Positions 11,988 to 63,132 of a stretch of 64,000 nucleotides of DNA are shown piece by piece; position 1 is the first letter of the stretch; every line of letters starts with the position of its first letter. The position numbers were made by a program, and so were the translations under genes. The DNA is from Hyaloperonospora brassicae. Lineage: Eukaryota > Oomycota > Peronosporomycetes > Peronosporales > Peronosporaceae. The stretch spans positions 310,001 to 374,000 of the forward strand of contig CANTFL010001475.1 of the NCBI GenBank assembly GCA_947650285.1, in the 5' to 3' direction. The notes under the pieces were generated by a model. That model was not told where the DNA came from. It worked only from the letters and a program-made list of their open reading frames with translations, and ran no database searches.

Positions 11988-12030
11988 GTGTCGATCTATC
12001 GATCTATCGATCTATCGATCGATCTATCTA
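11988..12030. repeat. ATCT/ATCG microsatellite
   Basis: A tetranucleotide run of GATCTATC-type units with interruptions. The surrounding 11830-12373 segment has no recognisable gene. Confidence 0.8.
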
Positions 12031-12373
12031 TCGATATTCGGTTCGCCGTCGGCATCAGTGTCGACTGCCTATCGAGCGGTTTAGGGCAAGTGGATGTGGG
12101 TGGTGGTGGTGGTGTCAAGTACGTCCATTATTATGATAACTAACGACTGATAAGTGTGACAAGAAGTACGGCCCGGGTATCGGGTCGACAACTAAAGGGC
12201 TCCGTAGAGCCAGGGGCGACGGCAACGAGGTCAGAGACCCTCCTACCGAAGCCAACTACGAGTCAATCATGACCGCTGGCGCGACCAAGTAGACTGGGGA
12301 CATGCGTACCGCCGGAGCGGCAGCACGTACAACGCGGGTATGCTGCCATATAAGGCAACAAACCCCTTTAGGA

Positions 12374-12770
12374 CCGCTTGCGCGGCCCCCGACGTGGAGT
12401 GCGAACACCGAAGTGACTGCGTGGCGTGGAGAACGCCAACTCGCCATATATCTCTCCGAGGAGCTCAACCATCTGCGATGGTGGCCCCCTTCAGCCGCTT
12501 GCGCGGCCCCCGACGTGGAGTGCGATCACCGAAGTGACTGCGTGGCGTGGAGAACGCCAACCCGCCATATATCTCTCCGAGGAGCTCAACCATCTGCGAT
12601 GGTGGTCCCCTTCAGCCGCTTGCGCGGCCCCCGACGTGGAGTGCGATCACCGAAGTGACTGCGTGGCGTGGAGAACGCCAACCCGCCATATATCTCTCCG
12701 AGGAGCTCAGCCATCTGCGATGGTGGCCCCCTTCAGCCGCTTGCGCGGCCCCTTGACGTGGAGTGTGCGC
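12374..12770. repeat. 121-bp tandem array (about 3.3 copies)
   Basis: Near-identical units begin at 12374, 12495, 12616 and 12737 (exact 121-bp spacing), each opening CCGCTTGCGCGGCCCC. The last is partial and diverges after about 30 bp; a degenerate related piece lies near 12834. Because 121 is not a multiple of three, the frames running through the array are repeat artefacts, not genes. The GC-rich flanks (12165-12990) look like part of a larger repeat, possibly the 5' region of another non-LTR element. Confidence 0.9.
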
Positions 12771-15208
12771 TCGCCGCAGCGGCGACACGTGGCGCGGGGT
12801 ACGCCTCCAGTCCGTAAAACACCCCTGCTAGGGCCGCTTGCGCGACCCGTCGGTCTCCTACGCCCACACCCGCGACTGCGAGTGCAGCGTGCCCGCGTCA
12901 GATCTTCGACCACGTCGGCTCCCCAAGGGGAGGATTCCCTCCGACGTGACTGCCCCGAAGGGAAAAAGACTGGCTTGAGCTGAACCGTGAAAATTTGGGA
13001 ATGAGGGGCAAGTGGATGTGGCTAACTGGGAGTTTGTAGGGTTTTCGGCCTGGTCGCATGAAGATCGATCGAGAGTGGAATGGCCACAACAAAAGCGAAT
13101 ACAGGCGCTTGAGGTGCAGGTAGGAGTTTTCTAGAGGGGGCTCGTAGACGTCAGGGACACAAGGGCGACAGCCACTAATGATCAAGAAACGCTCAGCTAG
13201 ACCGCTCACGGCACCATCCACAAGCCGTGCAGCGGATATACGACGACCCGGTCATGCTTGAGATTTAATTACAGCAATCTCTGAGCGAGGAAGTGGCAGC
13301 CAGACGAGCAAGACTAAACCCGTGCGATCTGATGCCGGAACTTGCTTGAGGGCTACTGGCACGTGCATATCTCGATCTCTAGCTAATGCTATTGAATAGC
13401 GCAACCTTGTATACCGCAACCTCGTGAGAGGCTAGACTTGCGTGGTGAATTGATCGCCATGGTTCTGCTGATACCAAAACATGCTCGATCTCACATGACA
13501 TTGCCGAATGGCAACCAACACATTGGCAGCTACCACGACGGTACAATACTCGCCGCAGTGCTCTACTCGTTGCCAAAGCCACGAAGTACCGTGTCTTTTG
13601 GTGTGCTGCTGGTACACGTGCACCCACTAGAGCGAAACACTGTCCTGCAGTGTCCCACGTTCGCTGCCGCACGCAGTCGCAAGAGAGACTGCTGTGGACA
13701 ACTCCATGTGCCTATTTGCGTGCGACACTTTCTTGATTGCGCATCGTGTGATTACTGACGAGAACACCAACGCATGGGACACATTTGAGCAAGCAGCGCG
13801 TCTCGTTTGCTGCTTCCGATTAGGCCCACCGAACAAAGGCGCGCTGCTCTCGTACTTAAGCGGAAACACAAACGTGGGACTTTTGGTGCGCCTCTTTTCA
13901 AAGAGCAAGTTTTATGCTGTTCGCGAAGCCCCCTACCCCGTGCTAATGCCAGGCTTGTTGTTGGTCGCGCCACTTGAAGTCTCGGGATAGCGCATCGTTT
14001 TTGTTGCTGAATCTTTTCGGCTCATTTTCAATGATCAGCGGATTGATTTGCTGCAAAGATTGACTCGCGAGATTCGCTTTGGCTGTGTAATCAAGCGCCT
14101 GTCGCTCGGCCGTGTAGTACTGCCGAGTTCGTCCTCATTGCATCAGGCAAAGTCGCTATCTTCATATACACGGGCCTTGTGTGACGCAGTCGTGGTATGA
14201 CGAGGTGGCGCGAGACCGCAATTTCGCAGCCTATTGTGGTGTGCCCAACGTTCGATGTCGACTTTGTGTCAACGAAAAATTGAATCTGACCGATGAAGCT
14301 CAGCTCGAGCGCGGCGGGTACGTGAGTGCTGCCACGAGGAAAGAGGCTGTGCCTTAACTTTGTATACCGGTCATCGGATCTCTTCGTCGACAACAAGCAG
14401 ACGTCTGCCGAACCTGCTTGACTGCAATTATGCTTCGTGATGACTCCGTGGCAACCGCCAACTGGGTGTAATCAGTCGAGTCAATGAGCTTTGAAACATC
14501 GTGTAGTACTGTGCAATGACGCTTTACCAATGTCACTGATAGGTTTGGGCAACAATGCGATGGTAGCCTTTATGACAAACGGTTTCTCATACCGCTGTAC
14601 CGTGTTGCGCCTGCCCGCGCAAAATGAAGGTTGACAGCGCACATTACTCACTTCTTGTCATGTGCTGCAAGAAGCAGTGCAAAAACGCCTCATGAGAAGA
14701 AACGCGGGTACGTGTCGGATGTTGCTGATTACTTTGAATCTGGATTCGTTCGGTAGCAAAACGAATGAACGGATTCGCCCAATTCGCGCGAAGCATAAGC
14801 CGTTCGATGTATGTATGTAGGTGAGCTGCTGAGACTCTTCTTTTCGTTGTGCCACCACCAAATTTGGAGGAGGCGTTTCATGATCGTCTATTTACATGTT
14901 GACAGGAGCAAGATGTCTGCAGGGTCTTGAGCAGGACACAAGCGCCTGTAAAGGTACCTTGTCTTGGCGAGTTTCGCATGCAGTTGAGTGCCGTGTGGGC
15001 TCGTGACTAAGTGACATGCTGCAAGCATGTAAACGCACTCCGGTGGTACGCAGTAAGCCTGTGTTACACGTCATTGCCACGAATGGTGGCAATAAAATGG
15101 CTTCTTGATCGAATTTTTCTTACAATATTACTCTTACGAGTCAGAATTATAGGAGTATTACCTTCGGAGGTAATGATAGGCACCGCCTCACTTTTTAATA
15201 GGCTATAG
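12771..15208. other. No gene recognised
   Basis: About 2.4 kb without a supportable gene. Frames such as 13694-13990 (+) and 13379-13672 (-) have no motif or splice context. A cysteine-rich stretch near 14240-14270 (+) could be a transposase relic, but this is too weak to name. Confidence 0.45.
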
Positions 15209-15281
15209 CCTACATATATATATAAACATATATATATGTATATGTATATATATATGAATATATATATGTATATGTAGATAA
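15209..15281. repeat. AT-rich TA/TATG microsatellite
   Basis: A run of ATATAT and TATG/TACA units of about 70 bp. The frames across it encode only Ile/Tyr repeats and are not genes. Confidence 0.85.
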
Positions 15282-15448
15282 TAAATGCCACTAATTGCTT
15301 CTAGACGCGTACGATGGAGTGTAAGTGAGGTTTTACAATGAAAACTTAGAGTTTATTATAGTTTAAGTAAGATACAGAATGTTTATCGAAGGGGCTTAAC
15401 GATATAAATTTACAGCTTTACTTCTCTCTCATTCTAAGCAAAAATGCT

Positions 15449-15833
15449 GTAACGGGGTTACACGTCGACTGGTAGTCGACAATAGGCGTGGTGCACCAAG
15501 TGATGGGAGCCTCTATAAAGTAATATATGAACACAGTATCAGTTGTTGAAGACTGATGTCTGTCAACCATTAATTACGAGATCTTTTAATAGGTTTATTT
15601 AGGACATTAGCGAGAAAGTTGAATACTTTGTTCTAAGGTGTTCTTTTAGGTTAAAAGAAGAAATAAAAATCAGTTCCCACTTTGATCAACAAAAGACACG
15701 TGCCTCTCTGAGGTATCTTGCGATCGTTAAGGAGGTAGCAACGCCTTGTTAAGGCAGCTACTCTTTGTGCACTTAGTGCGTTTGATTCTTAGAATCGTTT
15801 GGTCCCCCTGGAACAAGGACCGTAAGCTCTCTA
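15449..15833 (+). repeat. Possible truncated LTR relic next to Gypsy G1
   Basis: Starts TGTAACGGGG, the first ten bases of the Gypsy LTRs in this window. It is AT-rich with local hairpins (GTCGAC/GTCGAC at the start, GATTCT/AGAATC near 15782). It lacks the usual CCCCGTTACA end because G1 begins at 15834. A diverged related LTR cut by G1 is one reading; chance resemblance of the first ten bases is the other. Confidence 0.35.
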
Positions 15834-16228
15834 TGTAACGGGGCAGCCCGTTACATGGAAATTGTCATTTAAGAGATAATGACAATAAATAATATGAAGT
15901 TGGATATTATTTTAACAATATCACCAATGGTGGTGATATTGAAGGGTCGACCAAAGAGTCTGCTCATTCGTTGTATCTTGACGATATCAGCCCACCAATC
16001 GCCACAAGACGCGCGCAATGAGTGGTGAGCAGACGTCGTCATACACTCAGTTATATTGGTATAGTTAAGTTAAGTCAAACAGAGAGAGAGAGTAGTTAAA
16101 AGACTTAATTATATTAATATAACAGTTCTGCTTTTCCCTTATCTACGCTTCCTCGTTTGCCTCGTGTACGTCTGTCGGGCGCACCGATACCCTTGCGTTA
16201 AGTTCACGCAAGGGTGTGCCCCGTTACA
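15834..16228 (+). repeat. G1 5' LTR
   Basis: 395 bp, TGTAACGGGG ... CCCCGTTACA. Contains hairpins including TTGTCATT/AATGACAA (15862-15885). A possible promoter and poly(A) region cannot be resolved by eye. Confidence 0.92.
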
Positions 16229-16272
16229 CCTGGTAGCACTTTGTAGTCCTTCCAAGGACCACAGCATCCAAC

Positions 16273-17438
16273 ATGAACATGTTGGATGAAGAAGAAACCT
16301 TTCACGCCACGCGTGAAGGGTTTACCCATTTGATTGACATCGAATGGAGCGCGGTATAACGAATGAGTTCTACCGTAGTCGAGGTCGCCATTAGCGCCGT
16401 GTTGGAGTCTCTAGACAGAGACCAACAACATGCCGCTATAGCCAAGTTCATTCAAAATGAACTTGTCGACGAAAGGGAGAAAGTAGCCTTGCTTCAACAG
16501 CAAGGCTCTCAACAGTCCGAGCAGTTGAGAGAACTCGGTGCCCAACAGACAGAACTGTTGAGACAGCAGCAATTCCATGCTGCTGTGGGCGGGACGGCGC
16601 ATGCGCGTCGTCCCGAAGTCATGAAAATTGACATCTCCAAGTACAGTGGAGTCCCGGAGGACTCCCTGTTACTATGGCTTGTCGAACTCGACAGAGCCTT
16701 GAAGGCACGTCGCGTCGAAGATGAGCAAATGAAACTCACATTTGCTCAAACCCACTTGGCAGGGCGTGCCAAAACTTGGTCCCTGGGACTCGAGAGTAGC
16801 GACCCAAATGTGTTTTGGTCGCTAGATGACTTCAAGTCCCGGCTCAGACAAACGTTTGAGCCGCCACGGGCTGAGTTCAGGGCTCGTTCAGGGCTCGTTC
16901 AGAGCTCCTGAAACTCAAGCAGGGTAAGCGTGGTGTGCACGCTTACGCACAACATATACGACTCTTCGCGAGTAGTATAACTGCCAACCCAGTTCATGAA
17001 CACACGTTGATTACGGTGTTCATGCAAGGGCTCGCAGAAGGGCCCGTCAGGAGCCACCTGTTCCGCCTTGAGCTGAATACGCTGGAAGATGCGATATTAG
17101 CCGCGGAACAGGAAGACTTAAGCATGAGACAAGCTCATGCTAGCTCAAACTCTTATCGTCCACCGAGACGACAAGAGATCGGAGGTCCAGAACCAATGGA
17201 CCTCTGCTATGTTGAGAGCGAGAGACCTCGCTCTTCAAACAACAAGCGATTGCAGAAGTGCAATCGCTGTCAGAAGTTAGGGCACTACGCATACGAGTGT
17301 AGTGCTCCACGCCCAGTACCAAACAGTACTGAGCGAAATGGACGACCATTCGCCAGAAAGGGCAATGGGCGTGGGTCCAGCGCTGTTGCGAAGCCGCAAC
17401 AGCGAGACGGACCATCAAAAAATGGTCGGGGTCAGTAG
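16273..17438 (+). pseudogene. G1 gag (broken)
   Basis: Retrotransposon capsid protein ending in a CCHC knuckle (CNRCQKLGHYAYEC), which binds element RNA. Compared with the intact G2 gag it has an in-frame TAA at 16357. It also carries an 11-bp tandem duplication (GGCTCGTTCAG, near 16880-16900) that shifts the frame. Downstream of the shift the frame resumes from about 16935 to the stop at 17438. Two large open pieces remain, so decay is recent. Confidence 0.88.
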
Positions 17439-17488
17439 GGGCGGAGCGCCCTACTGATCGAGCAACCTCAAGAGAATTTGCAAATCTC

Positions 17489-18739
17489 TTGACGAAAGTT
17501 GCTCCAGATACACAATCATTGTGTGTCTCTGCACCTGGTGATGACGTTTCGCTCATCACCTTGAAGTTTGAAGCGACAAATGATTTGCCACTTCGTGCCC
17601 TAGTAGACTGTGGGGCGTCGAACAACTTTGTTCGTCGCCAGTCACTAGAGGGTCGTAGGCTCAAGTTCGTTGAGCGCGACATTCCCCTCACGAGGATGAC
17701 GGTGCGCCTTGCAACAGGCGCATCGATTACCGTTGAGAAATGTGTAGTAGGAATCCACTACACGTTAGAGGTCGAACAGTACGATGACGGCTTCATCGTA
17801 CTAGATCTGGATGACAAATTTGATGTCATCCTGGGATTACCTTGGCTCAGAAGGTACGAGCCAAGAGTGAGCTGGCAGCATCGATCCGTGAAGATGCCTG
17901 CCGCTTGTTCATCAGATGGCCATCTGATGAACATCGTGGAGCGTCCACAAGCGTGTGGATGTACTGCGAGTGAGTGCGATGACCTCACTTGCGGTACGGT
18001 CGTTAGCACGACTGCACAAGATCACAGTGTAGTTGATCACTACACTGTGGAGCAAGCTCCCGGCGGCTGTACAGAAGTACAGGCGGCGCCGAAGGTCCAC
18101 CACTCGAAGAAGTCGAGTGGACCGGGACATGGATGCATGCCTAGCGGGCAGCATCTTAGACGAAAGAAACATGTTGCCTTCAAAGGGCAACATGGACATC
18201 CTAGGTCGACTGGAGAGTCGACCGTAGAGGATCGGTACCTGACTGTGGTTGCACAGCCACAGTCGGAAGACGTCGAGGGAATAAGTCCCCACGTACTTGA
18301 GGAAGGAATTCCTCAAGAGTCACTTGCTGAGGGATCAGGCCCTCAGCAACCTGTGGAAGCAAGTTCCCAGGAAGAAACCGAGACGTTGAACGTCTTGGTT
18401 AATGACGGATCAAGTGTAGGCGCTTATACACTTGATCTGGTTGTGCCTCCGAAGTTAACTTCGGAGATAACTCAGTTGCCAACGCTAGAACCGAAACGGT
18501 TCTTTCGTGATCTGCGTAGTGGCAAAGTCAAGCAGATCTGCATACTCGTCACAGAGGATGAGTATGTGGCCGATATTCGGTCAGGCACAGTATTTGCTGA
18601 GAACGAACGGGTTCTCAGCAGCTCATCGATGGACGAAAGTGTCCTCGATAAGAAGACTCGGATTGAGCGATACACGTCTCAATCCTGGGAGTCACTTCTG
18701 GCAAATCCTTTGTATAAGGATTTGATCGAATTCAAATGA
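17489..18739 (+). pseudogene. G1 protease and linker part of pol
   Basis: A 416-codon open piece. The aspartic protease is near its start, with the active-site box LVDCGASNNF (DCGA in place of the common DSGA/DTGA) and a flap and second half ending near LGLPWLRRYEP. The following 250 residues are a hydrophilic linker without a known domain. The frame closes at IEFK-stop, where G2 has IEYRDVFPES, so the stop is a G1 mutation. It would cleave the Gag-Pol polyprotein. Confidence 0.82.
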
Positions 18740-20171
18740 CGTTTTACTGAATCCGTACCTTGCGAGTTGCCTAAGGACAAAGGCACTCGACACGAGATCG
18801 AGCTCAAACCGGGCTCGAAGTACTGTGTCATGAAGCAGTGGCTACTGCCTCGTGAACAAGTACTAGCGATCGACAAGTTCTTTGTCGATCGCTTAGCAGC
18901 GGGCCATGTGAGGGAATCAACATCCCCTCACAGCTCTCCGACGTTCTGTGTGCGAAAGACCACACGAGGATGGTGGATAGTGCACGCATTCAACAAATTG
19001 AATGCTGCAACGGTACCGGCTCAGACGCCGATACCGAGGAAGGACGTAATCATAGATGGTATGTCAAAGAGTACCATCTTTTCGTCCATGGATCTAATGG
19101 ATGGATTCTATCAGATCCTCATGCGTGAACAGGACATCCCGTACACAGCAGTGAGCACCCCAGCGGGATGCTGTGGGAGTGGCTAGTGATGCCACAGGGG
19201 CTGAGCAATGTCCCTGCAACGCTCAACAGATGTGTTACAAAACTTTTGAGACCGGTGCGTGATTTCGCACCGAGTTACTTCGACGATGTGTTCGTCCATA
19301 TTCGGGCTATGGACGGAAAGACGGACGTTGAAGTTCACAGAACTCACGTTCGTCAAGTCTTTCAACTTATGCGCAAGCACGAGTTGTACGCAAACCTCAA
19401 GAAGTGTATATTCGCGGCTAGCGAAATACCACTTCTTGGGTGCATCGTGGGTAAACACGGCGTACGCCCTGATCCCGAAAAGATCAAGGCGATCACCGAC
19501 TGGCCAGTGCCAGTCGATGTCAAGGGACTAAGGAAGTTCCTTGGGCTAGCGGCGTACTTGCACAAGTACTCGCGCAACTACGCCGAGATGACGGTACATC
19601 TTTCTTGCTTGCTCAAGAAAAATGTCAAGTGGTCATGGAACGCTGAGTGCCAGCGTTCCTTTGAGGGTATCAAGCGGAGCTTGATGCAGTCGCCGATCTT
19701 GGCGATTGCAGATCTGGACAGACCATTTCATGTGGTCTGTGACGCCAGCGATTTTGCGATCGGCTGTGCGTTAATGCAATTTGATGCAGATGGCGCAGAG
19801 CGCGTCATCTCTTATCAGTCGCGTCAGCTGCAGGCAGTTGAGCACAATTACCCAGTGCATGACATGAACTCCTTGCCATGAAGTATGCACTGGCTAAGTT
19901 CTGTGTCTATCTCTTGGGAGATAGACCGTTCATCGTCTATACGGACCATGCGTCGTTATGCACGGCCGTAAACAGCCCACATCTCTCGCAAAGGATGGCG
20001 AGGTGGTTTTCTTTTTTCGCGGAGTATAACTTCTCCGTGGAGTATAAACCAGGACGACTCAATGTCGTCGCTGATGCCCTTTCGCGCCGGCCCGATTTTG
20101 AGCCGGACGCACAAATCAACAGTGAGGATAAGCCCACTGTTGCGACACTGTCAGTCAGTGCCGTCGTCTAG
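18740..20171 (+). pseudogene. G1 reverse transcriptase-RNase H
   Basis: Reverse transcriptase with the palm catalytic box YFDD (SYFDDVFVH, near 19275), FCVRK and MDLMDGFYQI motifs. RNase H follows with the first catalytic Asp region (FHVVCDASDFAIGCAL) and ADALSRRPDF at its end. One missing C near 19159 (ACCCC against ACCCCC in G2) and one missing base near 19863 break the frame. At 19900 G1 has the continuous RNase H frame that G2 and G3 have lost. Confidence 0.88.
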
Positions 20172-22328
20172 CTTACTTGACGACGTACGAAAGGCATACG
20201 CAGAAGATAAGGATCTTTTGCGATTGATGGATCATCTGGTGAATCCATTCAGTAAATCCATGAGGGATTTACCGGCTTTTTACCGATCCTCCTCGGATCG
20301 GTATACGACACGCAACGGGTTGCTGTACTATACAGCTGTTGCCGACGACACGCCTCATGTCTTCGTACCCGCTCATGATGATTTGCGTTTACGCATCATG
20401 CATGAGTGTCACGATACCCCAACAAGCGGCCATAGTGGTAGAGAAACGACTTACCTCACGGTAAGTCGTGACTTTTACTGGCCCCGCCAGTATCAGTTTT
20501 TCCGCAAGTACATACGTGCTTGCGAGGTTTGTCAACGGGTGAAGCCTAGTCCTTCATCCCGTGCGCCATTGCAGCCTCTTCCTGTTCCGACAGAGTGCTG
20601 GCAGTCCGTTTCAATGGACTTCGTCTTCGGTTTTCCCGAAGACGCTCACAAGAATAATGGTATTCTTGTGTTTGTTGACCGATTCAGCAAGATGGTCCAT
20701 CTTGCTGCTGTCCCTGAGTCAATCAAGGCTCAAGGTTGTGCTCGTGTTTTTCTCGACACGGTCTTTAAACTCCACGGGTTACCCCGTGAACTCGTATCCG
20801 ACCGTGACCCTCGATTCACGGCGGAATTTTGGCAATCCGTGTTCCGTTCTCTCGGAACACGGTTGACGATGTCCACTTCTGACCATCCCGAGACAGATGG
20901 TCAGACGGAACGTGCGAACCGTATCCTTGAAGAGATTCTTCGAGGATACGTCCACTCGTTTTCGAGTTGGAGCGAATTCCTACCCATGGTGGAATTCGCC
21001 GTCAATAATTCGGTGCATGCTTCCACACAACACACACATTTTACATGAATGGTTTACGCCATCCACGTGTGCCCGCCCTTCTAGAGTGTAACTTTTGGAT
21101 AAGGAGGGGAGGGACTCGTTCGAGCAAAAACCGTTTTGGCTCTTGCTCATCACGTGTCGACGCTAACGTCGTCACGCATGATGCCGATGTCGATCAGGTC
21201 GACATCGATGAAGAAAATCACCATAATAATAGCGGCGATGCTATTACTGACTCGGATGGTGATGACGATGCTGGTATATTCAGCATCGTCAACGATTATG
21301 CCAGTGAGGAAGAAGACAGCCTCGCTGAAGAAGAGAGCAATCTCTTAGCAGTGCGCACGAAGCGCAATGAAAGACAAAACAAAGAGTCAGCAGAGAACTT
21401 CCTGCTGACTCGAGAGGCGGTAGTCCGTTTCGTTCAGGACTCCGTCGCAAATGCGGTGAACCGTCAGAAACGGAACGCAGACAAGAATGGAAGAGCAAAT
21501 GTTCTTTCATTTGAGGTTAATGACCTAGTACTACTTTCTACGGTAAACTTACCTGGACATGCATTCACTAGTGTCGGCAGTAGTAAACTACTGCCGAAGT
21601 ACATTGGGCCATTTCGAGTGGTGCATCGCAAGGGCAATGCATACACAATCGAATTGCCACGTAAGATGCGCACGCATCCTACGTTTTACGTGGGGAGGCT
21701 CAGGCCGTACTGTCAGTACGAGCCTTCTTCTTTCGATGAAGATAGCCCCCACGTTCAAGAACATCCATCAAGTTCTTGCGTTCGCGCTCCAGATGATCCG
21801 TCTGGTCGCGCAGATATGATACCTCGGAACTCAACCGAGAATTCTCACCGCGAGCTGTCGCCAGCTCGCCGAATAGGGAGCAGACATCCCCCTCGACCTG
21901 AAGCTGCGCTGTGGCATAATCGGCGCGATCGCTCGCCCGATCAGCCTCGTGATCCTTGCGATTCTTCCGCACGGTATCAGTCAAAGCGTAGCACCGGTCG
22001 CGCTCGTGCTTCAAGTCATCGCGCAATTCATCGATTGCGCGATCCATCTCGTAAGTGTCGAGATGGTTAACCGAATCATATGGAGGAGGTCTTTCCTCCT
22101 CCACCACATCCTTTGGTGGATTCTCACGGTGGTCAACGCTTTCTAGTGGAGCGTATCTTGAACCACCGTGACGATTCAGGATCAAGGACGAGCTACCTCG
22201 TCCAGTGGCAGGGGTATCCACCCTCTTGGAACAGCTGGGAGCCCCGCTCTCAGCTGTTGTTGGACGTTGAAGGTCTTGTCCGCCAGTATGACGAGACTCA
22301 TCCGATTGGTCCGAGGGACCATCGGTAA
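20172..22328 (+). pseudogene. G1 integrase with C-terminal chromodomain
   Basis: HHCC zinc motif (H-x-G-H ... CEVCQRVK, near 20410-20545). Catalytic D-D-E from SMDFVFGF, SDRDPRFTAEFW and the Glu in DGQTERANRILEE. An acidic insert (DANVVTHDADVDQVDIDEE region), a GPF/Y-type module (YIGPFRVVHRKGNAY) and a chromodomain (FLVERILNHRDDSG ... [17 protein letters not shown], 22140-22290) that usually guides integration to marked chromatin. Frame breaks occur near 21040, and a nonsense change (GAA to TAA) at about 22068 lies between the GPF/Y and chromodomain parts. The last 630 bp overlap the antisense gene. Confidence 0.87.
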
Positions 22329-23304
22329 ACACGCGCCCTAGGCGCTCGTAGACGGATTGCAAGTTTGCAACCGCGTCACGCATCTCAGCCGAGATGTGTG
22401 CCCTTCCCCAGGGCGAATTTAGGGAATACACATCCCTATGTGCACGCTGCGAGTTGTCAACACAACTCGCACAAGGATCTCCCCATGTGAGGCAAGGAAT
22501 GTCTGCCTCACTCGACAAACAGTGCAACAGGTACCTAGCACCGGGTGGCGTTCGCCTTTCGAACCTTAGACGTGTAGTCTCAAGTTTCTTGAGCCACCCT
22601 TCTCGTCCAAAATTCTTTACGTTTTGGACGAACGCGTTACACGCAGCCAAAAGTGAGGCCTTGTCACGCTTTTGGTTGCCGTTGTACCATCGATATCTAA
22701 GAAAGACATCGAGATAAAATTCTTCTTCAGTGCGAAATTTCTTCGCGCTAGAACTCAAGCCGTGAAGCCCAGTCGCATCGAATAAGGGTTTTCGATGGTG
22801 TTGGCTTGTCTCGTGAGACAAGCTATTGATGAGCCGTTCGAGCAAATGTCACGGCTTCAGCTCATCACGCTTCACAGCGGTACCCTTGTCGGTACCACGA
22901 TTGTCAGCATGACGATGGGTTGCACCATCGTCAAGTCGCCCGTGCGAAGGAGCACGAGCTGATTGCGGTGATGAGCAAACATACTCATCACCCGATTCGT
23001 CATCACTGCCGAACAGACTGTGTTGCAACTCACGAGTCCGTTCGTTTGGCATTGGCCTTGGCGAATACTGAGGCGTCGCCGGTGATCGAGACGCCCCTGG
23101 AATATTGCCCGAGTCAGACACGTCTGACTCGCCAGGGTAGATGACCTCAATGTCGGGTTCATCATGCGCACGCGGTGTTGTACCGCGTGCACCTGCAGCA
23201 CCTGTTGCTGCAGGCGAAGGAGGAGCAGCAGACGACGAATCGTCTGCCGCAGAGGCTGGCACAGCAGCGGGCTGCGCGGGTCTTGAGTCACCTCGCATAG
23301 ACAT
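21700..23304 (-). pseudogene. G1 antisense accessory gene (aORF), one nonsense change
   Basis: A frame of 535 codons on the strand opposite gag-pol, starting MSMRGDSRP about 130 bp from the 3' LTR and ending RTDSTA-stop inside pol. A single TGA (near 22846, where the other copies encode Trp) splits it into 151 and about 381 codons. The N-terminal 150 residues are acidic and Ser/Ala/Pro-rich. The middle part has a cysteine cluster C-x8-C-x6-C-x2-C (CLTWGDPCASC). The C-terminal 130 residues are Glu/Arg/Leu-rich with coiled-coil spacing. I do not recognise the family. Its position suggests transcription from the 3' LTR or the 130 bp beside it. Function unknown. Confidence 0.75.
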
Positions 23305-23435
23305 GTGAACTATGCGAGGTCAAGCGGAAAGTGAATGGAACGGACCCAACAAGTGCTCCCTGTCCCAATGGTGCCCAACGGGTGACCACCATATTTTCGA
23401 TAGTCACACGGTGACTATCAGTCAAGGGGGGGTGA

Positions 23436-23828
23436 TGTAACGGGGCAGCCCGTTACATGGAATTGTCACTTGAGAGATAATGACAATAAAGAATATTATG
23501 TTGAATATTCTTTGAACAATATCACCAATGGTGGTGATATTGAAGGGTCGACCAAAGAGTCTGTTCATTGGTTGATATCTTGATGATATCAACCCACCAA
23601 TCGCCGCAAGACGCGCGCAACGAGTGGTGAGTAGACGTCGTCATACACTCAGTTAGATTAGTATAATTAAGTTAAGTCAAACAGAGAGAGAGTAGTTAAA
23701 AGACTTAATTATATTAATACAACAGTTCTACTTTTTCCTTATCTACGCTTCCTCGTTTGCCTCGTGTACGTCTGTCGGGCGCACCGATACCCTTGCGTTA
23801 ATTTCACGCAAGGGTGTGCCCCGTTACA
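23436..23828 (+). repeat. G1 3' LTR
   Basis: 393 bp, preceded by the polypurine tract AAGGGGGGG. Very similar to the 5' LTR with scattered substitutions and small indels, including the TTGTCACT/AATGACAA stem (23463-23486), which carries a C-A mismatch. Confidence 0.92.
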
Positions 23829-31731: not shown

Positions 31732-32798
31732 CTCAGCGATGCGAGGTACGTGCGCTGCGTGTCAGACATGTGTCTGTACCACAAGCGCGATGGCGAAGAG
31801 CTAGTCGTTGTTGGCGTCTACGTCGATGATTTGCTGGCGACGGGAACGAGCGTCGCGTCAGTCGAGAGCTTCTTCGCGAGCCTGGCGTCGCTATCAATCA
31901 AGGATCTCGGCCATGTCCACAAGTTTCTGGGAATGCGAGTGGAACTCGGAAGCGACGGCGCGTACCGCATCGACCAGGAGGAGGCCATCAAGGAGCTACT
32001 GCGTGCTCATGGGATGAGCGATCTGAATCCGACGAGGACGCCGATTGGAGATGACTGCTACGAGGTCCTAGGCGACGACGCCGCGCTTCTTGAAATGACG
32101 AGCACAAGCGGTGGTGCAACCATCAACGCGTTTCAGTATCTCGTCCGGAGCCTGCTGTGGGTCGCGCGGTGCTCAAGGCCTGACATAGCCTTTGCAGTGC
32201 ATAAAGCAGCTAGGCAGACACATGCGCCGCGGGTACTCGACTGGAAGCTGTCCAAGCGTGTTGCCCGGTACCTAAAGGGGACAGCAATGCTCAAGTTCGA
32301 GATGGCGCCAGCGCGAACGAGCCGAGACGCGCTGCAGCTCGAAGCCTATAGCGATGCCGACTTCGCGGCTGACAAAGTAGACCGGAAGTCACTAACCGGA
32401 GGCGTCGTGCTCCTAAATGGGATGGCGGTGTCATGGACCGCGAAGAAACAGGGCGGAGTGAGCTCTCGACGATGGAGGCCGATTTCGTCGCGGCGTCGGA
32501 GGTTGCGCGCGAGCTCATTGGCTTGCACCAGATGCTCGGAGATGTGGGCATGGTGCCGGTTGTCCCAATGCTGATGCACGTGGACAACCAGGAAGCCATC
32601 AGCTAGATCGAAGGCGAAGCCTCGTCGATCAAGGCCAAGCACATCGACGTGCGGCACAAGTATCTGCGCGACCTCCATCGTCGTGGCATCATCACGGCGC
32701 AACAAGTTCGATCCGAATTGATGATAGCGGATCTGATGACGAAGGCCGTCGATGCAACCAAGCTGGCGACGCTGCGTAGCCTGATGCGGCTCCAGTAA
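31732..32798 (+). pseudogene. Copia reverse transcriptase-RNase H, C-terminal part
   Basis: Catalytic box VYVDDLLATG near 31820, VHKFLGMRVE, and RNase H residues in EAYSDADFAADKVDRKS. A missing base near 32463 shifts the frame just before the usual STMEAEF-like motif. A TAG at about 32603 follows (AIS-stop-IEG). The homologous frame ends at RLQ-stop near 32798. At least four lesions in total, so this copy is not autonomous despite near-identical LTRs. Confidence 0.88.
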
Positions 32799-32966
32799 GA
32801 GCGCGATGCGGATGAAGAGCTGGATGGGCGAGTGGGCTGTGTCAGGGTACGGATGTGGTGGAGGAACGCGTGAGGAGCTTCAGGACGAAGCAGATCGAGT
32901 ATGGAGGAAAACGGAAGAGTCAAAGAGAGTGCGAGAGAGAAGAGCGGAGGCGTATTCGAGGAGGGG

Positions 32967-33172
32967 TGTTGGAAGTGGAGGTCGAAGTTCGTGGTTTCGA
33001 TTAGCGCCAGCCGTCAATCTAGTCAGAGATAGTCAGAGCAAGATGGTAGTAGACAGTTTGGTCAGCAACCATCTGTCGTTGAGAACGAGTGGCTAGGAGG
33101 CAGACAAGAGAAAACTGGTAAGAAGGAACACAGAATCGAATTGTCCTTCTACTGCGCATACTACTTCCTACA
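32967..33172 (+). repeat. Copia 3' LTR
   Basis: 206 bp, three substitutions relative to the 5' LTR. Confidence 0.95.
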
Positions 33173-33276
33173 ACAGCCACGACAACACTTTGGCTCGTAC
33201 GTCTCAAAAGTCACAGCCCGTGCATGCCCAGCTGCCAGCTCCTTTAATCCGAATTGAGTACGTAAACAGCCAATGC

Positions 33277-33719
33277 TATAACGGGGTAGCCTGTTACATG
33301 ATATTGTCATTGAGAAGAAAATGACAATAAAGCATATTACGTTGAATATTCTTATAACAACATCACAAAGCATGATGATATTGTTGAAGATGACCGAAGG
33401 GTCCAGTCATTGGTTGATATCATGATGATATCAACCCACCAATCGCTGCTAGACGCGCGCAATGGGTGGTGAGTTGACGTCATCATACGTTTAGTTAGAA
33501 TAATATATGTAAGTCAGGATGAAGAGAGACATAAGATTTGTAGGACTTTATTGTATTAAATAACAGTTTCACTTTAACCAGAGACTCGAGTGTTCACTTA
33601 GTCTCCTTTCCTTCCTCTGTGTTGGTGCAGCACTTAGCAGGGCACTGAATATCACTGTTTTCAGTGGAAGTGAGCTCCGTACCGGCAAACCAGCACGCAG
33701 TTAACGGTACCCCGTTACA
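33277..33719 (+). repeat. Solo LTR of the Gypsy family, diverged
   Basis: 443 bp, TATAACGGGG ... CCCCGTTACA. It shares the body landmarks of the G1/G2 LTRs (TTGTCATT/AATGACAA stem, GGTTGATATCATG/GATATCAACC stem, GACGCGCGCAA), but the right third differs and is longer. No internal region is adjacent. Flanking 5-mers (AATGC and GCAAA) do not match, so it is old or arose by recombination between elements. Confidence 0.85.
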
Positions 33720-34518
33720 GCAAAAGTCTACGATTTTCAAATCTGTCACACTAATCAAGGCATTGTACGAGAAATGCCTTCAGAGACTATTCCACGTGGG
33801 TTGTGCTGGCGTAACGCTGGTCAAGACGAAGAGATGTAATCTTCGAGGAGGTCGTATTGGGGCACTATGTGAGAATCGGCATCGAGGAGCGGGGAAGGAT
33901 TTGAGACGTTGAGCGATCAGTAAATGTGTAGGAATGGGGTGGACCCTGATTGGGGTCAGTGCCATTCATTTGGTAGGTGCTCTAGCGATATTATTCTAGT
34001 GGCCCGTATTTTGTTCAGTCTTCAATGTTTGTCTACAAATGGCTGAGGTCGCAGGATCTGACACAACTTGAACACCTATCAATAAAACTGGTCCTGGTCC
34101 ATAGTACCACAGAAGCTTTTAGAATCATATGCCACCGCGACGACGTTTGTCGCGACGTTTCGAACCAGTTGACGTCTCGTTGAGATTTTCAATGGCAATT
34201 ACTTTGCGTCATGTCGTCGCTGTGGAGTGTATTCGTCATTCGTGATACAATACAACGACGACTTTTTCATGCAAGTGCTAGCGCTGAAGGTGAACTAGTA
34301 GACGAGGGTATGCCAAATCGGATTGCGAAGACTTCCACCCGCCATTGTTTTCACTCAACGAATGCTAGCGCTGGACCGTCACGAATACCAATGTCGATTC
34401 TTATCAACCTGGACCATAACACTTCACCTGAATCGACCGTTTGAAGAGCGACTGAGAGACCACTTGTGCGAGAAGGCGAAATGTCGATGCAAAATCTGGA
34501 CACGATACAGCTGGTAAG
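33720..34518. other. No gene recognised
   Basis: Between the solo LTR and G2. Frames such as 34211-34444 (+) have no motif. Confidence 0.5.
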
Positions 34519-34907
34519 TGTAACGGAGCAGCCCGTTACATGGAATTGTCACTTTAAGGAAAGTGACAATAAAGAATATGAGGTTGAATATTCTTTGAAC
34601 AATATCACCAAAGTGGTGATATTGACGGGTCGACCAAAGAGTCTGTTCATTGGTTGATATCTTGATGAATCAACCCACCAATAGCCGCAAGACGCGCGCA
34701 AAGATGGTGACGAGACGTCACCATACACTCAGTTATATTAGCATAATTAAGTTAAGTCAAACGAAGAGACAGTAGTTAAAAGACTTAATTATATTAATAT
34801 AACAGTTCTGCTTTTACCCTATCTACGCTTCCTCGCTTGCCTTGTGTACGTCTGTCGGGGCACCGATACCCTTGCGTTAAGTTCACGCAAGGGTGTGCCC
34901 CGTTACA
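34519..34907 (+). repeat. G2 5' LTR
   Basis: 389 bp, starting TGTAACGGAG. Contains the stem TTGTCACTTT/AAAGTGACAA (34546-34569). Confidence 0.93.
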
Positions 34908-34951
34908 CCTGGTAGCACTTTGTAGTCCTTCCAAGGACCACAACATCCAAC

Positions 34952-36106
34952 ATGAACATGTTGGATGAAGAAGACACCTTTCACGCCACGCGTGAAGGGT
35001 TTACCCATTTGAGTGACATCGAATGGGGTGCGGTAGAACGAAAGAGTTCTACCGTAGGCGAGTTCGCTATTAGCGCCATGTTGAAGTCTCTAGACAGAGA
35101 CCAACAACATGCTGCTATAGCCAAGTTCATACACAATGAACTTGCTCTCGAGAGGGAGAAAGTAGCCTTGCTTCACCAGCAAGGCTCTCAACAGGCCGAG
35201 CAGTTGAGAGAACTCGGTGATCAACAGACAGAGCTGTTGAGACAGCAGCAATTCCATGCTCCTGTGGGCGGGACGGCACATGCGCGTCGTCCCGAGGTCA
35301 TGAAAGTTGACATCTCCAAGTACAGTGGAGTCCCGGAGGACTCCCTGTTACTATGGTTTGTCGAACTCGACAGAACTTTAAGGGCTCGTCGCGTCGAAGA
35401 TGATCAAATGAAACTCACATTTGCTCAGGCCCACTTGGCAGGGCGTGCCAAAACTTGGTCCCTGGGACTCGAGAGTAGCGACCCAAATGTGTTTAGGCCG
35501 CTAGATGACTTCAAGTCCCGGTTCAGACAAACGTTTGAGCCGCCACGGGCTGAGTTCAGGGCTCGTTCAGAGCTCCTGAAACTCAAGCAGGGTAAGCGTG
35601 ATGTGCACGCTTACGCACAACATATACGACTCCTAGCGAGTAGTATAACTGCTAACCCAGTCCATGAACACATGTTGATTACGGTGTTCATGCAAGGGCT
35701 CGCAGAAGGGCCCGTCAGGACCCATCTGTTCCGCCTTGAGCTGAATACGCTTGAAGAAGCGATATCAGCCGCGGAACAGGAAGACTTTAGCATGAGACAG
35801 GCTCATGCTAGCTCAAACTCTTACCGTCCACCGAGACGACAAGAGATCGGAGGTCCAGAACCAATGGACCTCTGCTATGTTGAGAGCGAGAGACCTCGCT
35901 CTTCAAACAACAAGCTATTGCAGAGGTGCAATCGCTGTCAGAAGTTAGGGCACTACGCATACGAGTGTAGTGCTCCACGCCCAGTACCAAACAGTACTGA
36001 GCGAAATGGACAACCATTTGCCAGAAAGGGCAATGGGCGTGGGTCCAGCGCTGTTGCGAAGCCGCAACAGCGAGACGGACCATCAAAAAATGGTCGGGGT
36101 CAGTAG
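34952..36106 (+). CDS. G2 gag, intact
   Basis: 384 codons without interruption, ending in a basic, Gln/Gly-rich tail after the CCHC knuckle CNRCQKLGHYAYEC. The N-terminal region (about 40-110) is Gln/Glu-rich and probably a coiled coil. The middle matches retrotransposon gag capsid (SLLLWFVELDRTL, LAGRAKTW, FKSRFRQTFEPP). It packages element RNA into virus-like particles. This is the best gag of the three copies and the only one that could act in trans. Confidence 0.93.
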   Translation: MNMLDEEDTFHATREGFTHLSDIEWGAVERKSSTVGEFAISAMLKSLDRDQQHAAIAKFIHNELALEREKVALLHQQGSQQAEQLRELGDQQTELLRQQQFHAPVGGTAHARRPEVMKVDISKYSGVPEDSLLLWFVELDRTLRARRVEDDQMKLTFAQAHLAGRAKTWSLGLESSDPNVFRPLDDFKSRFRQTFEPPRAEFRARSELLKLKQGKRDVHAYAQHIRLLASSITANPVHEHMLITVFMQGLAEGPVRTHLFRLELNTLEEAISAAEQEDFSMRQAHASSNSYRPPRRQEIGGPEPMDLCYVESERPRSSNNKLLQRCNRCQKLGHYAYECSAPRPVPNSTERNGQPFARKGNGRGSSAVAKPQQRDGPSKNGRGQ

Positions 36107-36156
36107 GGGCGGAGCGCCCTACTGATCCAGCAACCTCAAGAGAATTTGCAAATCTC

Positions 36157-37430
36157 TTGACGAAAGTTGCTCCAGACACACAATCATTGTGTGTCTCTAC
36201 ACCTGGTGATGACGTTTCGCTCATCACCTTGAAGTTGGAAGCGACAAATGACTTGTCGCTTCGTGCCCTAGTAGACTGTGGGGCGTCGAACAACTTTGTT
36301 CGTCGCCAGTCACTAGAGGGTCGTAGGCTCAAGTTCGTTGAGCGCGACATTCCCCTCACAAGGATGACGGTGCGCCTTGCAACAGGAGCATCGATTACCG
36401 TTGAGAAACGTGTAGTCGGAATCCACTACACGTTGGAGGGCGAACAGTACGATGATGACTTCATCGTACTAGATCTGGATGACAAATTTGATGTCATCCT
36501 GGGATTACCTTGGCTCAGAAAGTACGAGCCAAGGGTGAGATGGCAGCATCGATCCGTGAAGATGCCTGCCGCTTGTTCATCAGATGGCTATCTGATGAAC
36601 ATCTTGGAGCGTCCACAAGCGTGTGGATGTTCTGCGAGTTAGTGCGATAGCCTCACTTGCGGTACGGTCGTTAGCACGACTGCACAAGATCAAAGTGTAG
36701 TTGATCACTACACTGTGGAGCAAGCTCCCGGCGTCTGTACAGAAGTACAGGCTGCGCCGAAGGTCCACCACTCGAATAAGTCGAGTGGACCGGGACATGG
36801 ATGCATGCCTAGCGGGCAGCATCTTAGACGGAAGAAACCTGTTGCCCCAATGGTCAACATAGAAATCCTAGGTCGACTGGAGAGTCGACCGTAGAGGATC
36901 AGTCGCTGACTGTGGTTGCACAGCCACAGTCGGAAGACGTCGAGGGAATAAGTCCCCACGTGCTTGAGGAAGGAATTCCTCAAGAGTCACTTGCTGAAGG
37001 ATTAGGCCTTCAGCAACCTGTGGGAAGAAGTTCCCAGGAAGTGACCGAGACGTTGAACGTCTTGGTTAATGACGGATCAAGCGTAGGCGCTTATACGCTT
37101 GACCTGATTGTGCCTCCGAAGTTAACTTCGGAGATAACTCAGTTGCCAACGCTAGAACCGAAACGGTTCTTGCGTGATCTGCGTAGTGGCAAAGTCAAGC
37201 AGATCTGCATACTCGTCACAGAGGACGAGTATGTGACCGATATTCGGTCGGCGACATTATTTGCTGAGAACGAACGGGTTCTCAGCAGCTCATCGATGGA
37301 CGAAAGTGTCCTCGATGAGAAGAATCGGATTGAGCGATACACGTCTCAATCCTGGGAGTCACTTCAAGCAAATCCTTTGTATAAGGATTTGATCGAATAT
37401 AGGGATGTGTTCCCTGAATCCGTACCTTGA
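36157..37430 (+). pseudogene. G2 protease and linker part of pol
   Basis: Protease active site LVDCGASNNF as in G1. The frame closes with TAG after QACGCSAS (36640), a stop shared with G3 and absent from G1, where the frame reads on. The linker resumes at about 36912 and runs to ESVP-stop at 37430, directly before the reverse transcriptase. Confidence 0.82.
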
Positions 37431-40998: not shown

Positions 40999-41977
40999 AC
41001 ACGCGCTTTTGGCGCTTGTAGACGGATTGCAAGTTTGCAATCGCGTCACGCATCTCAGCCGAGATGTGTGCCCTTCCCCAGGGCGAACTTGGGGAATACA
41101 CATCCCTATGTGCACGCTGCGAGTTGTAAACACAACTCGCACAAGGGTCTCCCCATGTGAGGCAAGGAATGCCTGCCTCACTCGACAAACAGTGCAACCG
41201 GTATCTGGCACCGGTTGGCGTTCGCTTTTCGAACCTGAGGCGTGTCGCCTCAAGTTTCTTGAGCCACCCTTCTCGTCCAAAATTCTTTACGTTTTGGACG
41301 AATGCGTTCCACGCAGCCAAAAGCGATGCTTTGTCACGCTTTTGGTTGCTGTTGTACCATCGATGTCTAAGAAAGACAATGAGATAAAAATCTTCTTCAG
41401 CGCGAAAGTTGCTCGCGCTGGAACTCAAGCCGTGAAGCTCAGTCGCATCGAATAAGGGTATTCGATGGTGTTGGCCTGTCTCATGAGACAAGCTATTGAT
41501 GAGCCGTTCGGGCAAACGCCACGGCTTCGGCTCATCACGCTTCACAGTGGTACCCTTGTCGGTACCACGGCTCCCAGATTGACGACGGTTCACGCCATCG
41601 TCATCACGCTCGTGCGAAGACACACGAGCCGGTGGTGGTAAGGAATAATATTCCTCACCGCCCTGATCATCGTCATCACTGCCGAACAGACTGTGTTGCA
41701 ACTCACGATTCCGTTCGTTCGGCAGTGGCCTTGACGAATACTGAGGCGTCGCCGGTGAGCGAGACGCCTCTGGAGCATTGCCCGAGTCAGACACGTCTGA
41801 CTCGCCAGAGTAGATGACCTCAATGTCGGGGTCATCATGCGCACGCGGTGAGGTGTCGCGTGCACCTGCAGCACCTGTTGCTGCAGGAAAAGAAGGAGCA
41901 GCAGACGACGAATCGTCTGCCGCAGAAGCTGGCACAGCACCAGGATGTGTGGGTCTTGAGTCACCCCGCATAGACAT
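40370..41977 (-). pseudogene. G2 antisense accessory gene (aORF), truncated by one nonsense change
   Basis: Open for 469 codons from MSMRGDSRP. A TAG at 40568 ends the frame where G1 and G3 continue (QL-stop against QLQVE); the homologous end is 40370. Same order as G1: acidic Ser/Asp-rich N-terminus (FGSDDDDQGGEEYY), conserved middle with the C-x8-C-x6-C-x2-C cluster, charged coiled-coil C-terminus. This is the longest uninterrupted version in the window. It starts 131 bp from the 3' LTR and overlaps the chromodomain frame on the other strand. Confidence 0.78.
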
Positions 41978-63082: not shown

Positions 63083-63132
63083 GAGATTTGCAAATTCTCT
63101 TGAGGTTGCTGGATCAGTATGGCGCTCCGCCC

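Follow-up and report, generated by a model that had tools for sequence, protein, structure and literature searches.

The 64,000-nt stretch of Hyaloperonospora brassicae DNA analysed here (the window) carries three copies, G1, G2 and G3, of a chromodomain-type Ty3/Gypsy LTR retrotransposon, and these are tiled with short perfect hairpins through coding frames and LTRs alike. Our best reading is that the whole length of the element is under selection in cis for local self-complementarity, largely through synonymous sites. In addition, a sister family, H, whose pol is about 60% identical, carries a tiling of its own, made of 5-bp hairpins that lie elsewhere along the element.

Hairpins fill the elements of family G

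When perfect stems of at least 8 bp (loop 2-12) were counted per 2-kb window, we found 22, 21, 15 and 20 in G1, 16, 31, 18 and 19 in G2 and 20, 12, 17 and 24 in G3. Shuffle means for these 12 windows, which lie wholly or mostly inside the elements, were only 0.15-0.45 (observed 12-31), confirming the tiling reported in the preliminary description of this DNA. All 11 two-arm pairs quoted there match exactly, the stretch 57436-57455 reads as a hairpin and the bounds given for G1 (15834-23828) agree with its LTR ends. Among the 18 windows wholly outside G1-G3, 17 hold 0-1 such stems; the other, 32001-34000, holds three and contains a related LTR-like stretch. Of the two mixed windows, 14001-16000, with an AT repeat and the beginning of G1, holds 15, and 42001-44000, which takes in the last part of G2, holds 8. 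No match over the Rfam gathering score was found in 15000-43000.

The coordinates are collected in Table 1. Pfam domains over cut-off in the frames of G1-G3 were gag, RVP_2, RVT_1, RNase H, H2C2, rve and SH3_Tf2-1, with gag followed by protease, RT, RNase H and integrase in this order; a candidate gag zinc knuckle (zf-CCHC_3) scored 22.0 and 22.9 bits, under the cut-off of 27. The LTRs start with TGTAACGGGGC and end with GCCCCGTTACA, which gives the TG...CA ends. A candidate primer binding site, TGGTAGCAC..., directly follows the 5′ LTR (by eye, without tRNA match) and a candidate polypurine tract, AAGGGGGG, precedes the 3′ LTR (by eye). The young copy E1, whose two LTRs are identical across 392 nt, has a chromodomain (PF00385) over cut-off at C40:1542705-1542857, within its ORF3 of 411 aa. 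Open frames with the length of the E1 pol (1339 aa) occur in 31 of the best 150 of 3511 candidate matches. In E1, the counterpart of the hairpin at 16265-16288 covers the ATG with which the gag frame first opens.

Table 1. Position of the family G copies, their parts and example hairpins in the window
Feature	Position	Strand	Remarks
G1, full-length Ty3/Gypsy, chromodomain-type, hairpin-tiled	15834-23828	+	82 perfect stems of at least 8 bp (loop 2-12); frames broken
G1 5′ LTR	15834-16228	+	four near-adjacent hairpins of 24-26 nt each at 15833-15941
G1 3′ LTR	23436-23828	+	93.5% identity to 5′ LTR over 397 columns
G1 pol (protease, RT, RNase H, integrase, SH3)	17333-21345	+	frames broken; Pfam, tblastn with E1 pol
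G1 antisense ORF, 381 aa	21700-22845	-	also hairpin-tiled; G2 copy has homologues
G2, full-length copy	34519-42512	+	92 stems of at least 8 bp; LTRs 34519-34907 and 42109-42512, 91.9% identical
G2 gag	34952-36106	+	Retrotrans_gag, Ty3_capsid; zinc-knuckle match below curated cut-off (Pfam)
G2 antisense ORF, 469 aa	40568-41977	-	homologues in H. arabidopsidis and Peronospora
G3, cut by window end	56742-64000	-	73 stems of at least 8 bp; LTR 56742-57132
G3 antisense ORF	57262-58392	+	Pfam scan of frames
Hairpin, 11-bp stem, 2-nt loop	16265-16288	.	read in sequence
Hairpin, 10-bp stem, 4-nt loop	17381-17404	.	read in sequence
Hairpin, 10-bp stem, 6-nt loop	20837-20862	.	read in sequence

Stems of family G typically measure 8-10 bp with loops of mostly 2-10 nt, and the hairpin span in E1 peaks at 23-24 nt. 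With loops of up to 60 nt allowed, E1 has 185 non-overlapping stems of at least 6 bp that cover 4578 of its 7980 bases. This is one per 43 nt, so the spacing of 25-35 nt claimed at first was too dense for perfect stems, also for the older G1 with its 82 stems of at least 8 bp. Each LTR of E1 holds seven stems of at least 8 bp.

Under codon-preserving shuffles (100 per E1 frame) the pol frame, with 54 stems of at least 8 bp, was compared to an expectation of 1.19 +/- 0.9 (maximum 4), gag with 16 to 0.46, ORF3 with 13 to 0.64 and the antisense ORF with 24 to 0.60. Dinucleotide shuffles were a separate set, and the excess holds under each of the two. Stems of the E1 pol are depleted in the register in which third codon positions face each other (7/54), whereas no clear depletion is seen in gag (4/16) or the antisense ORF (6/24); the statement that the hairpins ignore codon phase thus fails for pol. 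Amino-acid identity to H1 is alike in the arms (48/91 and 53/95) and outside them (391/697). In our reading, the pol stems are built largely via synonymous codon choice.

Folding energy and controls from the same genome

In 120-nt windows the folding z of E1 was -5.16 for the sense and -4.61 for the antisense strand, and that of G1 -3.65 and -3.88, compared to -0.26 for the window's Copia, -0.38 for the LINE and -0.27 and -0.65 for two host genes. With 350-nt windows and dinucleotide shuffles, the MFED reached 47.5% in E1 (mean z -10 per 350 nt) and 48.5% in a second G sequence, and 13.8% in one piece of H. Stems of at least 8 bp are at chance level in the Copia, the LINE and the host genes of the window, in agreement with the earlier impression that these are untiled, while the family members G2, G3 and E1 are tiled like G1. 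Thirteen Copia and RVT_3-matched loci showed no excess of 5-bp stems or of stems of at least 8 bp. Among 16 controls, a LINE-like element (C40:1514819-1518577) had somewhat more 5-bp stems than expected (29 vs 15.0, z 3.5), and one Copia (L045) had three 7-bp stems where 0.6 were expected. Mild excesses of stems of at least 6 bp were seen in a Tra1-like host frame (32 vs 20.0), the frame next to it (21 vs 11.3) and a carboxyl transferase frame (17 vs 8.9); none of these host frames had an excess of stems of at least 8 bp.

Chance, composition or coding bias was rejected on the codon and dinucleotide shuffles, the same-genome controls and the folding z, and we give it practically no weight. For stems of at least 8 bp nothing speaks in its favour. 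Simple repeats account for the stems, short or rich in AT, at 11991-12035, at 12374-12765 and in the AT run at 15214-15285; at 12001-14000, where stems of at least 6 bp are in excess, they coincide with no stem of at least 8 bp at all.

At stem mismatches of family G, G.U and A.C were about balanced (internal 9 vs 9, outer 21 vs 18, inner 12 vs 14), as were shared non-pairs (GT 20, AC 19). Overlapping windows of E1 gave a slight G.U lean (+62.1 vs +50.1 for A.C), and no preference for G.U was found among the unique stem mismatches of family G. The near-equal folding of sense and antisense, together with the lack of a G.U preference, suggests that pairing counts on either strand. The GC content of G stems is 53.3%, compared to 51.8% element-wide, and no closing-pair preference was found in them; for known structured RNAs, PMC2648742 gives 62.6% in paired and 38.7% in unpaired positions. 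Since the G stems are hardly GC-rich and lack a closing-pair preference, stability itself is not clearly the selected trait.

Transmitted variation is reduced in stems

Variants were counted in 13 young copies at 4465 sites covered by at least 5 of the 13; E1, E2, E3, L005, L044 and L033 were left out of these counts, and L001 is another name for G1. Singletons were equally frequent in stems (149/1372) and outside hairpins (298/2658), while shared variants were halved in stems (33/1372 vs 117/2658). The ratio of shared to single variants differed between stems and outside (Fisher, p 0.010; third codon positions, p 0.022); it did not differ significantly between stems and loops (p 0.14) or at non-coding sites (p 0.80). 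Between lineages, third positions differed at 40/360 sites in stems, 30/92 in loops and 127/596 outside. In the pol-dead copies E2 and E3, 5.7% and 6.1% of the stem sites were changed, compared to 11.9% (p 2e-6) and 10.0% (p 0.0015) outside. Private change was lower in stems too in copies of young or intermediate age, namely G1 (2.8 vs 3.9%), G2 (1.8 vs 3.4%) and L005 (7.2 vs 11.5%), so that the pol-dead lineage does not stand out in this respect. The comparisons of stems with outside sites are conditioned on the hairpins of E1, and local rate differences could contribute to them.

Many stem positions are kept between G and E2/E3. When E1 stem pairs were compared to the state common to E2 and E3, double changes kept pairing in 9 cases and did not in 4, against 4 and 7, 1 and 6, and 0 and 9 when the partners were slid by +1, -1 and +2 columns. 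This count left out 454 pairs where E2 and E3 disagree or have a gap, and 93 of the 106 changed pairs were changed on one side. An apparent increase in stems along the branch of E1 (129 pairs in E1 only, 31 in E2=E3 only) was discarded, being confounded by stem choice. An ordered structure on the scale of the whole element, one of the causes suggested at first, is supported as a selected feature by shuffles, folding, MFED, shared variants and the pol-dead lineage.

A sister family with its own, shorter hairpins

The hairpin sites of family H are non-homologous to those of G. In the H frame L029 we found 58 stems of 5 bp, 18 of 6 bp and none longer, and H hairpins span about 13-15 nt. The tiling of H is a second, independent one with its own shorter hairpins. 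The closing 5′ base is a pyrimidine in 70-79% (48% in shuffles) and the outer 5′ base is G in 34-49% (26%); in the window's Copia, which has 17 hairpins by chance, the closing base is a pyrimidine in 76% of them, as in H. These base preferences are those typical of stable hairpins. In window counts, the excess of single G.U pairs was larger than that of single A.C pairs, with +25.8 vs +1.7 in L029, +22.7 vs +0.8 in L032 and +55.0 vs +21.8 in H1; the unique 5-bp hairpins of H1 have outer G.U and A.C at 24 vs 21 and inner ones at 5 vs 1.

What the hairpins may be for

For the selection along the whole length we tentatively propose shielding from antisense or small RNA; to selection and shielding taken together we would give somewhat less than an even chance. 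The folded state would act in cis on the element's nucleic acid. The conserved antisense gene would yield a complement of the sense RNA and, as a guess from this anatomy, folding may stop the two from pairing with one another or with small RNAs, by which the element might escape silencing. The hairpins also cover parts of the element without the antisense gene. The fuller version, a second palindromic layer with a stem limit that differs by family, at 5 bp in H and 8-10 bp in G, and that leaves neither strand open to antisense or small RNA and counters silencing in cis, seems to us rather doubtful; we came across no described counterpart of such a mechanism in the open-licence literature. At an MFE of at most -3, the self-folded fraction of 21- and 25-nt windows is 0.37 and 0.59 in E1 and 0.36 and 0.60 in the window's GC-rich Copia; at -6 or below, 25-nt windows give 0.27 vs 0.19. 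Retrotransposons of Phytophthora infestans give rise mostly to small RNAs of 24-30 nt, and inverted repeats are the most potent small-RNA sources per Mb in that species, in the results given in PMC3804510; the latter points opposite to shielding, though for other repeats. As for the folding of guides, PMC2648742 found it to be without effect. A small-RNA ruler, with the span peak of E1 set against the 25/26-nt size given for oomycete small RNAs, was dropped because H hairpins are far shorter and folding at -3 is not distinctive in E1.

Alternatively, the hairpins could be dispersed packaging or condensation sites, with the Gag of each family binding stem-loops along the genomic RNA and setting their length, short in H (5 bp) and longer in G (8-10 bp). 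The family-specific geometry at non-homologous sites speaks for this, as does the G.U excess of H, expected of sense RNA, together with the slight lean in E1. Stems are also kept in the pol-dead lineage: the LTRs of E2 are 99.3% identical over 295 nt, so this copy was probably mobilised by helper proteins and would depend on packaging in cis. Inspection by eye, however, showed no loop motif in either family, and the missing G.U preference among unique mismatches of G and the nearly equal folding of the antisense strand also weigh against packaging, which we regard as unlikely. A function at the DNA level, with hairpins in single-stranded cDNA of either strand or cruciforms in the inserted element serving strand transfer, integration or chromatin, would fit the strand symmetry, the strict Watson-Crick pairing in G and the tiled LTRs. 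Yet H leans in its window counts toward the wobble of a sense RNA, and singletons are as frequent in stems as outside; since these mostly arise after insertion, the hairpins do not seem to be preserved once a copy is inserted, and we consider such a function improbable.

About equally improbable is a mutational drive in which the RT switches template within hairpins and copies arm onto arm without selection, as the preliminary description had also considered. It would explain the strict pairing without wobble preference, the near-neutral GC of G and the confinement of the tiling to a single RT clade within the sample. But no hairpin of at least 8 bp was gained by three or more pair changes in the 13 young copies, counted as gains relative to E1 (E1 stems lost in blocks lie outside this count), and double changes that paired, 11 distinct ones in 22 cells, and those that did not, in 3 cells, stand against 393 single-change cells. 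Transmitted change is lower in stems, where copying between arms would be expected to leave the per-site rate roughly unchanged. The base preferences and the sharp stem-length limit of H likewise disfavour template switching.

Two related families with different stem lengths and sites, beside untiled Copia and RVT_3 elements in one nucleus, provide a natural experiment on genome folding. If shielding is true, a mobile element could resist silencing by sequence alone; if packaging is true, the families show how Gag shapes a whole genome.

Comparison with known systems

In the open-licence literature we found no retrotransposon with element-wide hairpin tiling. Family G shares gag, protease, RT, RNase H, an H2C2 integrase, a chromodomain ORF and LTRs with the Ty3/Gypsy chromodomain elements of oomycetes, and close pol homologues come from Peronospora, Globisporangium and Phytophthora (best 120 of 1948 matches); it is apparently set apart by the tiling, and also by an antisense ORF with homologues. 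In two scans of viral contigs and one of genome contigs, DNA of relatives was confirmed in no other species. Foldback and MITE elements also have inverted repeats, long and terminal ones, whereas about 185 short independent hairpins fill E1. In the dispersed packaging-signal model of ssRNA virus assembly, many stem-loops across coding RNA could bind coat protein; the common loop motif is what G and H lack by eye. The RNA structure of leviviruses keeps plus and minus strands apart. Phage MS2, a levivirus, is likewise strongly structured through its coding sequence (MFED 29.5%, z -5.8, measured as for E1), but G clearly surpasses it in folding excess by this in-house measure, and MS2 has 0.56 perfect stems of at least 8 bp per kb compared to 14.0 in E1. 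As in GORS, the native folding energy lies well below that of order-shuffled controls along the whole G element; GORS is a feature of RNA virus genomes, however, and G, a retrotransposon of a cellular genome, would be GORS-like in working and is not filed as GORS. Structured virus genomes resemble G in their hundreds of stem-loops, spread diffusely across coding sequence, not tied to domain borders and at positions not common to distant relatives, as between G and H. The MFED values in PMC7642675 are about 7-9% for HCV, 15% for SARS-CoV-2 and 23.4% for the highest vertebrate virus, obtained with NDR shuffles, whereas those of G come from our own dinucleotide shuffles. Unlike these genomes, G has perfect local hairpins of a set size, no wobble preference and many stem positions in common with E2/E3.

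Hairpin tiling of family G

The three chromodomain-type Gypsy copies in the window (G1, G2 and G3) share 92.8-95.7% identity and constitute one family; the assembly containing them comprises 100.6 Mb. In 200 kb of another contig of the same genome, C40, the sole further full copy was E1, with LTRs that are identical over 392 nt. Its long frames, read from stop to stop, are gag (396 aa), pol (1339 aa), ORF3 (411 aa), in which the chromodomain is located, and an antisense frame (539 aa). The E1 LTR (C40:1536407-1536798) opens with a 10-bp hairpin, and pairing of its 5′ arm with the final LTR bases is also possible. With 13 homologues for its G2 copy, the antisense ORF is a member of a protein family; they include one from H. 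arabidopsidis (49%; UniRef name Core-binding (CB) domain protein) and two from Peronospora matthiolae (37% and 32%). Neither the G2 nor the G3 ORF matched a Pfam family, and the single match of the G1 ORF was below the cut-off.

Elements and antisense ORFs of families G and H (positions in the window unless C40 is given)
Feature	Position	Strand	Remark
G1	15834-23828	+	Gypsy copy
G2	34519-42512	+	Gypsy copy
G3	56742-64000	-	Gypsy copy, truncated by window end
Antisense ORF, G1	21700-22845	-	
Antisense ORF, G2	40568-41977	-	
Antisense ORF, G3	57262-58392	+	
E1	C40:1536407-1544386		Full G copy
E2	C40:1482965-1490568		G relative
E3	C40:1500101-1512681		G relative
H1	about C40:1548400-1556004	-	Sister family H; LTRs 98.6% identical over 487 columns

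The preliminary description proposed that G1 is tiled with short hairpins, and all 11 arm pairs that it listed were exact. The 12 windows of 2 kb that lie entirely or largely within G1-G3 each contained 12-31 perfect inverted repeats with arms of at least 8 bp (loops of 2-12 nt), against shuffle means of 0.15-0.45. Outside the elements, 17 of 18 windows contained 0-1 such stems (shuffle means about 0.1-0.6); the remaining one had three and contains a G-related LTR-like stretch (33279-33579). This lone stretch shows about 79% identity to the LTR of G1 and adjoins the window's Copia element. Each of the 12 element windows had 3-12 stems of at least 10 bp, for which the expectation is near zero. 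Stems of at least 8 bp were densest in E1 (14.0 per kb, compared to 11.5 in G2, 10.3 in G1 and 10.1 in G3), as expected if mutation erodes the hairpins of inserted copies. Within E1, their density per kb was 17.9 in the LTR, 14.3 in gag, 13.4 in pol alone, 13.1 in ORF3 alone, 19.1 in the antisense gene alone and 8.0 in the region coding on both strands (just 5 stems).

The proposed excess held against codon-preserving shuffles (n=100): E1 pol has 54 stems of at least 8 bp versus 1.19 ± 0.90 (shuffle maximum 4), gag 16 versus 0.46, ORF3 13 versus 0.64 and the antisense frame 24 versus 0.60. Several host frames tested in this way showed a mild excess of stems of at least 6 bp (e.g. 32 versus 20.0 in a Tra1-like frame) and no excess of the longer stems. 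Folding energies agreed, with a mean z per 120 nt of -5.16 (sense) and -4.61 (antisense) for E1 and -3.65 and -3.88 for G1. The folding-energy excess over shuffles (MFED, 350-nt windows) was 47.5% in E1, 48.5% in the further G piece L033, 13.8% in the H piece L029, 29.5% in phage MS2, -0.4% in Copia and 4.4% in the LINE. Published values in part of PMC7642675, obtained with a shuffling that differs from ours, are 7-9% for HCV, 15% for SARS-CoV-2 and 23.4% for the top vertebrate virus.

The adjacent Copia and LINE elements were described as untiled by eye. In 13 control pieces of the same genome and the window's Copia and LINE, z for 5-bp stems was -0.8 to 0.7, without an excess of stems of at least 8 bp. 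The control pieces comprise seven with a match to the Copia RT family and six with a match to RVT_3; in the latter group, RT, RNase H and RVT_3 are all present in L055-L057, the matches of L053 and L054 are to RVT_3 and RNase H only, and the tested frame of L052 had no Pfam matches. Elements of the L055-L057 type resemble the Chronos type. This type is named in a portion of PMC5348765. The Copia piece L045 has three 7-bp stems versus 0.6 expected, and a further LINE-like element (C40:1514819-1518577; 1253-aa frame, RVT_1) showed a mild 5-bp excess (29 versus 15.0, z 3.5). Short-stem excess was also observed in the LINE-G1 interval, at a TCGA-type repeat (11991-12035), a 121-bp tandem array (12374-12765) and an AT repeat (15214-15285).

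A sister family with shorter hairpins

Family H, with about 54-62% pol identity to G, is tiled differently. In H1, stems of at least 8 bp are almost absent, and two inner 2.5-kb windows contain 42 and 51 5-bp stems versus about 10. The 832-aa frame of L029 has 58 5-bp stems versus 19.2 ± 4.6, 18 6-bp stems versus 5.0 and none longer. Among 16 fetched element pieces (10 H, 6 G), all H pieces showed the 5-bp excess (z 8-16) and nine lacked stems of at least 8 bp (L037 has two), whereas long stems were present in all six G pieces. H loops are mostly 3-5 nt, with spans of about 13-15 nt, while G spans peak at 23-24 nt. The hairpin sites differ as well: of the 28-66 stems in each comparison, the other family has 0-4 intact, in alignments that are 56-60% identical and uncertain in places. 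Elsewhere on C40, the 2.5-kb window 1452501-1455000 has 20 5-bp stems versus 10.7 (z 4.3).

Codons, strands and selection

Third codon positions pair with each other in 7 of 54 stems in E1 pol, 4 of 16 in gag and 6 of 24 in the antisense gene; the sparseness of this register in pol indicates that pol hairpins exploit synonymous freedom. Amino-acid identity to H1 was 53% and 56% in the arms and 56% outside, so the arms have not displaced protein sequence.

G.U and A.C mismatches were balanced in E1 (internal 9 versus 9, outer 21 versus 18, inner 12 versus 14), in the pooled first mismatches of G1-G3 (80 versus 86, n=423) and in states common to at least three G copies (20 versus 19); overlapping-window counts in E1 lean slightly to G.U (excess 62 versus 50). 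G stems have 53.3% GC versus 51.8% in the element and lack a closing-pair preference. Either both strands need to pair, or the builder of the hairpins is strand-blind. H window counts favour G.U, H stems are GC-richer than H sequence and the closing 5′ pyrimidine reaches 70-79% in four H sequences versus 48% in shuffles, so that the H hairpins appear to be adapted to folding as sense RNA. However, a closing 5′ pyrimidine is also present in 76% of the chance hairpins (n=17) in the Copia element of the window.

Among 13 G copies, single-copy variants were equally frequent in E1-defined stems (149/1372) and outside hairpins (298/2658), whereas variants common to at least two copies were rarer in stems (33/1372 versus 117/2658). 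Fisher tests on the shared:single ratio gave p 0.010 for stems versus outside, 0.022 at third positions, 0.14 for stem versus loop and 0.80 in non-coding sequence (few sites). Compared with the state common to E2 and E3, the young copies differed at 40/360 third positions in stems, 30/92 in loops and 127/596 outside. Compensatory change is present yet modest: 9 double changes retained pairing and 4 did not, 93 further changes were one-sided and 503 pairs were unchanged. Relative to E1, no gains of hairpins of at least 8 bp by at least three pair changes were found in 13 young copies.

E2 and E3 are G relatives with identities of about 75-79%. Of the stops in their pol frames (12 and 13, respectively), 9 are common to both, suggesting that their ancestor was probably dead in pol; of the 5 and 6 stops in their gag frames, 1 is. 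E2 LTRs are 99.3% identical over 295 nt, and E2/E3 seem to be a pol-dead lineage with recent movement. Private changes, meaning differences from E1 and one other copy and thus including variants common to further copies, were fewer in stems than outside (E2 5.7% versus 11.9%; E3 6.1% versus 10.0%), suggesting that the stems act in cis. The contrast is not peculiar to the dead lineage, since G1 (2.8% versus 3.9%), G2 (1.8% versus 3.4%) and L005 (7.2% versus 11.5%) show it too. Beside E3, self-comparison revealed a tandem array (C40:1498058-1498801) with a period of 52 bases.

Possible function

We favour self-folding of both strands as a putative shield, in which the sense and antisense strands of the element would each fold on themselves. 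As the antisense gene has homologues in H. arabidopsidis and P. matthiolae, overlapping transcripts should arise in the last third of the element. In Phytophthora infestans, small RNAs of retrotransposons are mostly 24-30 nt, according to sections of PMC3804510; the same sections describe inverted repeats as strong small-RNA sources, which argues against shielding. Also against it, the hairpins reach far past the antisense gene and E1 is not clearly set apart by simple measures of small-RNA self-folding. The strongest rival to shielding is packaging.

No retrotransposon with element-wide hairpin tiling was found among the papers listed by searches of an open-licence library. We rate family G as a Ty3/Gypsy element with an extreme, GORS-like predicted structure.
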